A DNA stretch of 64,000 bases from Urechis unicinctus (Eukaryota; Annelida; Polychaeta; Xenopneusta; Urechidae), in assembly GCA_034190875.2 (NCBI GenBank), contig CM067356.1:19388126-19452125 (forward strand). The letters run 5' to 3'. A program made the position numbers and the translations under genes. This document shows positions 20,805-64,000 of the stretch, piece after piece. The notes beneath the pieces are model-generated. The model saw nothing but the letters and a program-made list of their open reading frames with translations. It did no database searches and was not told where the DNA came from. Each line of letters begins with the position of its first letter. The stretch's first letter is position 1.

Positions 20805-23800
20805 TATCTTTTAGAATAAAGATGAAAATTAGAGTTTTGTCAAGCTTTCGTTTTATTATGCATTGAATGCGACCAATTCCCCAAAGTAATATATACTCAC
20901 AATCCAACCATTACATCCCACATAGGGCATGGTTACATAGCAACCTCACCATAATGTGCAATTTCATGGCAAGGTTTTGATAAAGTCATCAGCCAACTAT
21001 AACTGAAAATTAGCCTTACGTTTTGTGGTGATGAATTGGACAGGGAAACCAAATAATACAATCGCAATTAGGGATAATGGGGTATCTCGACTACGTATCT
21101 CGACTTACCTATTTCCATGCCATTGTCCTTTTACGCAACCCGTTAACTTGCTTGCCTTGCAGTAATGCCCAAGATAGGTTATTCATTTATCAAGATACAT
21201 ATATATATATATATAGATATATATATATGCACTGATATATATATATATTTATATATATATATATATATATATATATATATACATATTTCTATATATATAT
21301 GCATATATATATATATTTATATTTGCATATATATATACATATATATATATTATGCATATATATATGCATATATATATATATATATATATATATATATATA
21401 TATATATATATATATATATATATATATATATATATATATATATATATATATATATATATATATATATATATATATATATATATATATATATATATATACA
21501 TATATATATGTATAAAAATGTATGTGTGTATCCCGCATGACATGATCGAGTAATGAATTATACTCTGAATCACCCATCGCTAGGAAATACGCTCATTCTT
21601 TCTCTGTAAGAATCTGCCATTCGAAAGACCCCATGTTCATCAATCATGTACGCCTAATTGCATGATCGTGTCCTTGTGGGTGCTGTTATTGTACTCAGCG
21701 ACGTTAGCTGTCATACCACGCCCTAATAACTATTTGGCAGCAACGATGGCAACCTTGCATCATTGAAAAGAATCTTGTACCAGTAAAAGCACCGCCTTCG
21801 CACATCAAATTAGATTTACGGTTAACCTATTGTTGTTCGTTTTTGCTTTTCAAACTACAGCTAATGGACTCTCAGTATGCAACGAAATTAGCATGAAACA
21901 TGGCATTTCCGTTCCGACGCAATTTTCCATTCGTTCCATGCAATCCGAAGGAACGTTTTATTGACGGTCGTAAGGTATGTAAAGCTTGCTGTCGACTATA
22001 CAACTTATCCCTCACCCCACTCCATCGCCGCTATAGAATAATTGCAACCAGCCACTATTGATCAAACGTCTGATTAAGCCCTGAAAGCTTGCTTTACGGG
22101 AAGTAAGGGTTTAGTGTGCCATCCATCTCCAGCTAAGGAAAACTCGAGCATAATTGAGCCTCCTCGTGCAACTGAACAAATTGAAAAGATGCCGGAACAT
22201 GTTTTACAAACATAACTATCACGTCTGCGTTAATAAATACACGTTCCTATGGCTAACCACGAGACATTAAATGAAATAACTACTGCTAACAAATATACCT
22301 CATGATAGATTTTCATATAAGTATGGCAGTTCTCTTACCCTCCCCCTTTCTTAAGGTCCCTGCTAATGTGATTAATACTTAATCTGGCCTAAATCACCTT
22401 CACATAAATAGAAACCTGCCCCTATCAACTTATGTTACTTCGGGTAACAAGGTTTATCACTTCGGTGCGCTGTTATATCTCAATAACTACATTATTCGAC
22501 CTTTAGCTCCTATAACGTGATCCATTAGTCAGACAGGTGACACCCTATAGCAGCAACCGGTCGTTAACTTGCTATTCAGACAACCTGAGCAAACGTGGAA
22601 CGCGACAATTTTATAGCAAAATCAGGCAAAGATAAAGGCTGGGTAGCACTATCATGACAATGGGTTCAACTATAACCGCAGGTAGGTTCCTAGCCCATAT
22701 GCCAAAACAGCAAGCATCATTTGAGGCAACATATAAATATTGTAAAGGCATGATAGCAGATAGGCTGCGTGGTAGCTTATGTATGATAGTCTACCATGTT
22801 CAGCGAAATATTGCTCACAGCAAACAACGCTTCTTACACGTCCCCGGCGGTGTGATCACAATCATACCACACACAACCAAACAGGTAAACTGTACACCAT
22901 CTCCACATGAGTAAATAATGCAACACAATGTGGCGAACGTACATATGCTATGGTCCAGAGGAACTACGAATATACCTCTGATGTTTACAACTTATTGGAT
23001 AAGTAAATGCTTCATATATTTGAAGTAATGTAATCTTGTATATTCATTGCTAGCATGTTTAATATGTTGCATGACCATTTAGAAGGATAAAAGGCTCATA
23101 ATTGGTTTGCGAGAACAGAACATGGATGCGGATGATAGTATGGGTACACCGTTTTGCTTTTTCCCAAAATTGTGGTGTCTCATTTAATCTAATCGGGCAA
23201 GTAGGATCATGCATACACCTTCAAACATGTTGGTTTGCTCACACAAATGTAGTGACGCATTAAAGCAGAACGCATCGTGTCAGCGCGCTCAATCAATTTA
23301 TCCCATCGACAAACACCAGTTACCCTAAGCTACAAGGACATTTGCGATATATTTACGGCATTATGAATAAAGTACATACTGCCCCCATGCATATCATTAC
23401 GTTGACGGTACAATCATCCCCCTTCCCTCCAGATAAAGCCTGAGAGAGTTACAGTAACTAGCAATCCCTTTATTAACATCTGCTCTAGCTTGTTATCGGA
23501 GGTGCAAAGGAGACTAGACCAGTTCAATATCACTCTGACGAGAGTTGGAGTGCCGTTGCATGCAGCTGCGCCGTAGGAACTCTCTTCGCAAGGCAGGCAT
23601 AGTTATCACGTCCGCGATTTATCGTGCTTGGAATGTATAAACACCACTGCAACATATCTGGTACGTTTACTTCGCTTGAATAGCCAATTTGATGCCAGCC
23701 ATCATCTGTCAGTTAAACGGATGATAAGAACAATGCATTGTCAGTTTGGTTCTTCAAAGCGCATCTGTACAGATCAATAAGTATTGTCTGATCCTAAGAC

Positions 23801-26800
23801 ATCTTCGAAGAGATCAGAAATGCTCACTAACGCCGGTGAAGGCTTGATATGATGCTGTAATTGTTGGGGGGACAATGCTTTTCTTCATTAAGACAAATCT
23901 CATTTGGTGTAAGAGGCTATATCGCGATAATGAACTTTCCCGACTCGAAAATGAAATATGATCTACTCGTAGCATTAGATGAACTGTCTGACCTCCGAGC
24001 ACCTACGCTGAGGAATATTTACATAGGTTGGACAGCCGTTTCAGATGACATGATGACATAGTCTGTTTGATGGATGTCATGTATTTGGCAGTATGGCAAT
24101 TTCCTTGTCGCTTAAGCCACATATATATCCCTTTGCTCAATATAAATGCCTTTGGTAGTGCTCGAAGTCATAATGTATATAACAACAGTCCGATTTGATG
24201 GAATATCGCAAACGGACACTTATCATACCGTTTGTGCCGTTATCTTGCGGTTCTGTGTAATATCAACATCTGAATTAAACAAAATACACTAACGCATGCG
24301 TAGACCTGTATGTGCTGTTAATAACAATCTACTTTAGCCCACTCTCTGTACGTATCAACAGATGCGAATGTACCCGCCCGCTAGCAATGATTCTAAATAC
24401 AAGCCAACAACTGGCTAAACATTACACTGGTGCCTATGGTCCACCAGTTCGTTTATAATATCATTCATGTATAAATCGCTAAATACTGAATTGCTTTAAG
24501 AACAATTGTCCCGGAAATGTTACAATGAATCGGGTGGATTAGCCATAACTAGTGGCAATGATTTCTTCATCGAATAGATGACGGATTCGTTGTACACGGA
24601 GGGAAGAGGACCATCAATTCTGCGATTGATGTGGCACCTTTCATTAATGATTTGGTGGTTAATCTCGTCCTTTTGACATTGATTGATACTCTGAGTTACA
24701 GTTGCGTCATTAAGTAACGCGTGACACAAAACAATGCACCGTCGTAAAAAGAGACATCGCACTCATTAAGCGGGTCTATTTTTAATTGGTACCCGTCCAG
24801 TAGTTTGCATCGTCAGCTGCTAGCCATCGTTTGCCAAAGAGCGTGCTTGATACACATCCATAACGAAAATAACATGGTGGATAATGGTTCATTTTGAGAG
24901 ATTTTCCCATCATTAGGTCGCGAGGATGAGGTCGTGTGTCGTTATATGGTTGTTCCAGTTTCTTCTCGCCGAGTCTCATCATAACAGTTACGGGTTCGTG
25001 TTTAATGACCCGAACTGTGTCAAAAAGCGATCGCATTGATTTTCATAACCTCTTATTTTCCAGCTATGTCAGATATGACAATGACCGCATAACGTTTTCT
25101 ACTCACATGCTTTTATCTACAATGCTTTACAGGGTGACTCATGATTTCATTTACGTCATATAAATGTCCGTCTAACCTTAAGGCATAACGACCATGGAAC
25201 AACGTGCCCCCTCAAGAGAATAAATATATTTATAACCAATGAATATTAGCCATGAAAACGTTAATTCTCAATCACCATTTATTTGGACAGGTGCGGCTAT
25301 ATACCACATGACATTAAGTATAGGATTTATCGCCATAACGAATTCAATGAGAGCAGAAATGTGGCGATTTATAATAGGTGCTGTCTGACGCATACTTCGA
25401 CCTTTACAAAAGCACGTCTGAATTGCATCGCAAAGCGTTCGTAATTAATTAACTGGATCACTTTTGCGCGCCACTTGTGTGTGCGTTTGACTTAGCAGTT
25501 TACAATATATTATGTGAAGCATAAAAAGTGTCCGTGACGTTAGATATTGACCTACCGTGGCCAGCTAATAACCTGAGTTGTTTGGCAAATATAGATCACC
25601 TCATGAGTTTAAATAAAGACAACTCTAACGCATTAGCGAACACCGGTTCTTGAAAATGATCATTGCTTAGCTGACCATGGATGGTCATTTGCGGATAGCC
25701 AGGTGCGTTTGAATGATGACCCTAGGAATGTTTTACATTACTCGAATGTCACAGCGGATCTTTTGGTAATGTGTTTTAGGTTGTGTCTTGGTTAATATAA
25801 AATGGTGATGCATAAGTATCTTAGAGCTCGCTACAAGTGCTACACAATACAATAGCAAACAACTCATGACAGACAGCATGTTTTAGCGTAAGGAAGGAGG
25901 AGCTACAGTAAACACATGCGGTGGGGGCCATCACCTTTCCTATAAAGTTTCTATTTGTTAATGATTTGATTTAATATTCCGACCCAGCAGGATACATCTT
26001 CAAGGCATCTTCTGGTATCGCTCTGTGTTAGACCCGAAACCGACGGCATTATATTTTACCATTGACCAAATTTGCTTTTATTAGCTTTCATGAACGTAAT
26101 TTTCCATTCAGCCATCCCCACCTGCTAAATGTGGTTACACGGCTAAGGCATCATGCAATATTATGATGCCGTATATGATTTGATGATATATGACATCTGA
26201 TGCAAGGACAAACGTGGTTATTATCATATTTCATAGATTAAGGTGATGCATTGATTATACATAGTTCGTGTCAACAGCAAGTCATGTCTCCCTCTTCATA
26301 GAATTCCACCACTTGACTGTCGAGTTAGTACAAAAGAGTGTGACCTTTTGATTCGTGAGCGGTTCACAGACGCAAGAAATCGATAGCCACTCCATGCAAA
26401 CCACAGAAACGTTAGTCTCCGTGGATCATTATAATTTGAATGTATATCCCGACAAATATGATGTGATCCATTGTCAGAGACAATTAAATAATTTCAGTTT
26501 TACGGCGCCATGTAATAATGCCTCTTAGATAAGTACCATTTACAAACCTCGCCACTCACATATAACACAATCCCTTCCACGATACTCTCCCTACTTCCTA
26601 ACAATCCCGCCCACAGTTTCCCCCAACCGTTGTACAGCTTTCTAAATGTAAACCAAACCGGTACCAAGGCCGCTCGCTCTCGGTAAGGGCAATAAAGTAA
26701 GCCTTTTCACCATCGCGTAGCTTACAGAAGCCATATCAAATGACTCTTTGCTACAGCCACTTTTTGTGCAAATCAGCACTCTCAACACCCCGTACTAACA

Positions 26801-63459: not shown

Positions 63460-64000
63460 ATGTACACACGTCTGTCTTTTTAGATGGTTAATACTGGTAG
63501 CTTTATTACCATGTAAGCGTAAAAGCGTCCGGAATCCTGTCATCAAACTCATAGAAACATAAGCAAATAAATGTAATCGCATGTGGCCATTGTTGCAGAC
63601 ACCCTGCTCATGAGACAAAATGTATTTGACTTCATCTAGAAGTTTAACTAAGCATCACCTAACATTGTTAATCTGCGGCGAACGTGCTTTGATAGTAACA
63701 GCCTGTTAGCACCTTTTTTATAATAGCATGCAATATCTGGTTTGAATTGGACAAGAAGACCGAATGATATCCTTGCAATTAAAGATAATGAGGCCTCACG
63801 ACCTACCCAGTGCATGTTTCGGACCTTAATACGCTCGCTTGCTGGTCATATCATACTACCCAAGCAGGGATATCGAATATGCTACCTTAATTCATCTTAT
63901 TCAATGGACTATTACGTTTTCATGAAATGAATAAAGTGGTGTTATTTTCTAAATGTATTACGCCTTGAAATAATGAAATACTGTCTCTGCAACATGGCAA
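63460..64000 (+). repeat. Start of a fifth diverged unit, cut by the window edge
   Basis: It opens with CAGACATGTACACACGTCTG. The block at 63,575-63,900 weakly matches 49,770-50,080 and 41,470-41,830, in the same order. The array therefore continues beyond the right edge of the window. Confidence 0.55.

Follow-up and report, generated by a model that had tools for sequence, protein, structure and literature searches.

An old array of repeatedly copied kilobase units, without a recognizable gene, inside a Urechis unicinctus chromosome

The DNA considered here, called the window, is a stretch of 64,000 nucleotides from the annelid Urechis unicinctus (assembly GCA_034190875.2, 1,190,315,542 bases in 926 contigs), running from 19,388,126 to 19,452,125 on contig CM067356.1 (C15 in what follows; 74,974,652 bases). 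Most of it is occupied by an old array of units that were copied again and again; no gene was found among them. Positions are those of the window, with negative values to its left and values above 64,000 to its right. The array spans about 47 kb: it starts at about 20.8 kb, its last module copies located by profile search end at 67,460, beyond the window edge, and one further match to it follows at 67,820-67,932. An earlier note, drawn from the sequence alone, had described at least 43 kb of reiterated units up to 64,000; this is borne out, and the array is larger still. The same note had envisaged a subtelomeric block, which we reject, as the position is chromosome-internal, 19.39 Mb from one end of the 74.97-Mb contig.

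Self-comparison by BLAST at low stringency, a check proposed in the earlier note, gave 76 self-matches more than 1 kb apart within 20,805-64,000, going well beyond the pair of sharp copies, A and B, with which the array begins. All of them are direct and none is inverted, and no such match appeared in any of 20 local dinucleotide shuffles (500-bp blocks). Together they span 66% of the interval, against 9% at 70.0-113.2 kb, 11% at 64.0-107.2 kb, 8% at -90.0 to -46.8 kb and 14% at -68.0 to -24.8 kb, all blocks of equal length. Two other blocks of that length have high coverage, -43.5 to -0.3 kb (47%) and 100.0-143.2 kb (43%, in mixed orientation). The latter is locally repetitive, with 49 distant self-matches (17 direct, 32 inverted), and is unrelated to the array by BLAST.

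Three module cores had been listed by eye, and each was found again at the places announced for it. Core 1, GACATGTACGCACCT (at most 3 mismatches), lies on the plus strand at all five (44,147, 49,006, 54,193, 58,312 and 63,457); with three minus-strand matches elsewhere it totals 8, against 1.59 expected, a figure reached in none of 100 shuffles. Core 2, ATATATCAACTT (at most 1 mismatch), is weak by itself, its four matches (45,189, 50,748, 54,958 and one on the minus strand) being also reached in 5 of 100 shuffles; three of its four announced places came from the core and the fourth, at 59.54 kb, only from a profile (59,187-59,570). Core 3 (at most 3 mismatches, 0.06 expected) recovered three of five places, at 28,008, 39,069 and 56,585, and the remaining two, at 43.7 and 61.69 kb, were seen only by profile, at 43,578-43,781 and 61,585-61,710.

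Module copies were mapped by iterative nhmmer searches with 13 tiles over 254 kb, and every copy between 20 and 68 kb is on the plus strand. The best order, M1a, M1b, t49.5, P, t50.2, M2, t51.4, T, t30.9, M3, needs 8 wraps in 41 placements between 40.8 and 64.4 kb, while 300 shuffles of the order, each with the order refitted because the best order derives from the same data, had a mean of 15.5 wraps and a minimum of 12. These placements omit extra adjacent t51.4 copies (such as 55,915, 56,040, 60,909 and those after 64,366) and a second M2 piece at 50,636, with t40.8 merged with M1b, and t46.7, t37 and t29.5 merged as T. Three departures from the order were seen: T and t49.5 each occur once in excess, at 53,612 and 57,353 respectively, and M1a is in two pieces (62,087 and 63,362). 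From 40.8 kb on, unit starts are spaced by 3.1, 5.3, 4.8, 4.0 and 4.1 kb (Table 1). Thus the contention that modules keep their order in tandem units holds, with a unit of about 3-5 kb instead of the 4-6 kb first proposed. Likewise, copies A and B, which the earlier note took for 9-11 kb pairs of units, are indeed longer, each carrying M3 twice. Between A and B, M3 copies pair first with first (identity 0.91) and second with second (0.88), and first with second at only 0.56-0.60, so that what was copied from one to the other was the longer unit. In A, B and unit 3, an AT or TA microsatellite lies between P and M3, and t51.4 contains, in more than one unit, an expanded minisatellite of about 52 bp (55,990-56,135; 64,366-64,720; 66,741-67,460).

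Table 1. Units of the array, with their modules and simple repeats
Feature	Position	Strand	Content
Copy A	20,795-28,392	+	P 20,873-21,195; M3 21,617-21,774 and 27,866-28,113; T 26,351-26,514
Microsatellite (AT) in copy A	21,195-21,514		
Copy B	30,064-39,575	+	P 30,142-30,596; t50.2; part of M2; t30.9; T 37,061-37,281; TA microsatellite 31,829-32,057; M3 32,154-32,322 and 38,938-39,174
Unit 3	40,784-43,781	+	M1b/t40.8, t49.5, P, part of M2, t30.9, M3; TA microsatellite 43,252-43,422
Unit 4	43,867-47,239	+	M1a, P, t50.2, M2, T, t30.9
Unit 5	49,050-53,378	+	M1b, t49.5, P, t50.2, M2, t51.4, T, t30.9, M3 piece; extra T follows
Unit 6	53,925-56,680	+	M1a, M1b, M2, t51.4, M3; P not found
Tandem duplication (243 bp) in unit 6	55,143-55,644		
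Unit 7	57,957-61,710	+	M1a piece, M1b, t49.5, t50.2, M2, t51.4, M3
Minisatellite (44 bp) in unit 7	60,123-60,612		
Unit 8	62,087-64,000	+	M1a pieces, P piece; beyond the window, t50.2, M2 and t51.4 copies to 67,460

The units are of different ages. In a piecewise alignment the Kimura two-parameter distance (K80) between A and B is 0.113 over 7,153 aligned positions, with a transition/transversion ratio of 1.0; identity is about 90% over aligned positions and 83% in the BLAST match, which counts gaps. Four segments of the A-B body have a K80 of 0.065-0.090. At its right end (27,160-28,392), A has other affinities, with a K80 of 0.128 to an inverted unit at -42.6 kb vs 0.208 to B, and a tree support of 1.000. 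In the segment matching this right end, the pair at -24.9/-20.9 kb is very young (K80 0.013). The stretch -25,937..-21,282 is 90.9% identical to -21,935..-17,163. Most units are 58-77% identical to one another, and unit 3 resembles the front of B at about 67-77%; the loss of sharpness after A and B noticed at the outset (from about 90% identity to 58-75% in later units) is real. This range of ages, taken with the affinities of the right end of A, indicates that copying extended over a long time and that the copies are mosaic, a condition which conversion or nested duplication may have produced.

Relatives of the array extend to its left. From -43.5 to -6.9 kb nearly all are inverted, the exceptions being two matches on the plus strand near -30 kb; others, on the plus strand, lie at -61 to -54 kb. 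Farthest are matches at -172.0 to -166.3 kb, found in two stretches from -175 to -155 kb, which does not imply continuity, as the sequence read leaves out -155 to -90 kb. A separate array occupies -43.5 to -0.3 kb; its 44 distant self-matches, all direct, account for the coverage given above. Elsewhere in the genome, searches with four pieces of the array met no copy. These DNA searches, which skip common words and give lower bounds, returned at least 4 matches for 33,900-35,500, at least 15 for 38,042-39,575, at least 5 for 30,128-31,143 and at least 4 for 54,582-55,402, and all 28 (queries included) fall on C15 between 19.221 and 19.444 Mb. This search of the source genome had been suggested beforehand; among its matches none was at an unrelated locus. 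A superficial search of the published literature brought up no account of the array that we could recognize.

We consider it likely that the array arose by local segmental duplication of non-coding DNA, the copies having subsequently diverged and become mosaic: several kilobase-scale copies of non-mobile DNA are gathered in one chromosomal region. They would probably be chromosome-internal tandem and inverted duplications decaying neutrally, and no function could be shown for them. To begin with, a unit of about 3-5 kb would have been copied in tandem, in one orientation, by unequal crossing over or replication slippage. Units of greater length, with M3 present twice, would then have arisen and been copied again, from A to B. 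Parts would also have been copied, in inverted orientation, into the DNA on the left, and the copies would afterwards have diverged through point changes, indels and microsatellite growth. That the decay may be neutral is consistent with the behaviour of three recent pairs, where identity in the module vs its surroundings is 0.908 vs 0.896 for P, 0.882 vs 0.941 for T and 0.895 vs 0.870 for M3, differences reached by 927, 1296 and 626 of 2000 circular shifts. Functional modules are thus rejected for P, T and M3, which are no more conserved than what surrounds them; and, since they do not stand out, the patchiness of older units would be, as far as can be tested, what remains after indels and substitutions.

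Could the patches be the remains of genes? Were the array the relic of a tandem gene cluster, its modules would be former exons, spaced by introns and now part of pseudogenes. Conserved patches of 100-450 bp about 1 kb apart do look exon-like, and a few weak coding runs exist (z 3.77 at 64,548-64,673, on the minus strand and in a minisatellite; 3.70 at 56,246-56,356; 3.21 at 51,427-51,555). A genuine tandem gene cluster even lies nearby, at 145.1-161.6 kb: a repeated coding family under clear constraint, membrane-protein-like by eye, whose main open reading frame (ORF) has no Pfam match by itself. Its score in the same scan (z 7.39, with a ratio of nonsynonymous to synonymous differences per site, pN/pS, of 0.28) demonstrates that the test is able to see genes. 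However, the array and the relatives upstream of it gave 383 stop-free aligned runs, scored from 30 codons upwards so that very short exons would escape, and their mean z is only 0.39 (standard deviation 0.97). The high runs are a little above chance expectation, but they overlap and are not independent. Furthermore, of the 47 module copies looked at, 40 are interrupted by a stop in all six frames (the other 7 keep a stop-free frame), and only 32 of 181 gaps in the module alignments are multiples of three. A six-frame Pfam scan of 30,064-41,500 and 48,900-58,700 found no significant domain, the sole match being DUF4149 (E 0.067; 13.9 bits vs a cut-off of 24.6), and six array ORFs, including the longest that is not simple sequence (160 amino acids), had no Pfam match; in 20.8-30.06, 41.5-48.9 and 58.7-64 kb the Pfam search covered at most the longest ORFs. 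A tandem gene family is therefore rejected, no coding constraint being visible in the conserved patches for runs of at least 30 codons, and a gene relic appears improbable. The initial claim that no gene survives is supported to the extent that none was found: the coding signal is nowhere convincing, and the parts searched for Pfam domains gave none of significance.

A little less probable still is a locus selected for being transcribed, irrespective of its sequence, as a source of small RNAs resembling a PIWI-interacting RNA (piRNA) cluster, or as a long non-coding RNA. The locus is single, poor in genes and made up of repeats that occur upstream in both orientations, as one would expect of it, but no Rfam family matched at the gathering threshold, and RNAalifold placed 0 consensus base pairs in M3 (11 copies) and in T (12 copies). 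ARAGORN found no tRNA gene. A cluster of structured RNAs is rejected on the same grounds, for want of an Rfam family and of a consensus fold in M3 and T, the two modules folded. piRNA clusters usually hold transposon fragments, and none were found in the array parts scanned. The decayed multi-copy element evoked in the earlier note finds no support in a dispersed form, as the four array pieces searched genome-wide match only the C15 locus and no significant Pfam domain was seen in the parts scanned in six frames. We thus reject a dispersed transposable element, there being no copies elsewhere (for four pieces, as lower bounds) and no transposase or reverse transcriptase domain in the parts scanned. 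Large non-autonomous mobile elements of a degenerate family, inserted close together, would account for long units, inverted relatives and several ages; yet the four genome-wide searches stay at one locus, the matches within the array are direct without exception and order is kept across units, which makes this origin very improbable. Least probable of all is an assembly artefact, with alternative haplotypes or misjoined reads placed in tandem. It would fit the adjacency of A and B, which differ by about 10%, and the pair at -25.9/-21.9 kb, about 91% identical, but later units at 58-75% identity are far past allelic divergence and still follow the same order.

To be sure, the interpretation as local segmental duplications has facts to contend with. 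The constraint result covers P, T and M3 only, as M1a, M1b and M2 have no recent copies. Identity between A and B ranges from 0.735 to 0.975 in windows of 200 positions, an unevenness suggesting selection or conversion on some stretches. The mean of the coding scan is slightly positive, with three array runs above z 3.2. Finally, copies so old as to fall well below about 70% identity would escape the genome-wide searches.

Other elements are found around the array. On its left are ORFs with a YqaJ recombinase domain (15,987-16,610, plus strand) and a DDE_Tnp_4 endonuclease domain (17,167-17,715, minus strand); a pair of ORFs resembling them, as judged by eye, lies at about -63.9 to -62.2 kb. 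To the right, at about 90.8-93.4 kb on the minus strand, an open frame of 849 amino acids, similar to those of long interspersed nuclear elements, carries RVT_1 and endonuclease domains.

As a single locus, the array matters little: over a long period and in one place, kilobase non-coding units were copied both in tandem and in inverted orientation, and their ordered modules are still legible at 60-70% identity. If the pattern were common genome-wide, much of the DNA would stem from local duplication, which repeat annotation would have to distinguish from transposons. Local direct repeats were present in one of two control stretches, too few for a genome-wide judgement. In a 20-kb stretch chosen blind (C3:10,000,001-10,020,000) 12 distant self-matches were seen, 12 of 12 direct and most 6-13 kb apart; array stretches of equal length have 9, 12 and 42. 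This C3 stretch has no match to the array, and its pair 6,188-6,772/13,539-14,123 also matches DNA near -31 kb, so that part at least of its pattern is a dispersed repeat. A 10-kb stretch of C8 has no self-matches more than 1 kb apart. It is an unlikely generalization that much of the gene-poor DNA in this genome arose in a similar way, each locus repeatedly duplicating in tandem an arbitrary kilobase unit private to it.

Among known systems, the SpTransformer genes of the sea urchin form a segmentally duplicated immune gene cluster; where PMC10887614 describes it, local duplications flanked by short tandem repeats recall the present case, whereas the duplicated segments there carry genes and none was found here. 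The array also consists of kilobase units arranged head to tail at one locus, and to this extent, though only loosely, it fits the proposal of a macrosatellite. Macrosatellites are kilobase-unit tandem arrays such as D4Z4. In contrast to their near-homogeneous copies, those of the array are few, mosaic and diverged (58-77% identity between most units), with unit lengths of 3.1-11 kb and inverted relatives nearby. The pairing of M3 modules between A and B is reminiscent of the higher-order repeats of satellites, although here the monomers are kilobases long and there are only two higher-order copies. Segmental duplications are usually called at 90% identity or more over at least 1 kb; many copies of the array are far below that level, and only its youngest pairs would qualify. 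The array nevertheless has much in common with local segmental duplications, or low-copy repeats: kilobase units of non-coding DNA, direct and inverted, in few copies of several ages, mosaic, and in one chromosomal region.

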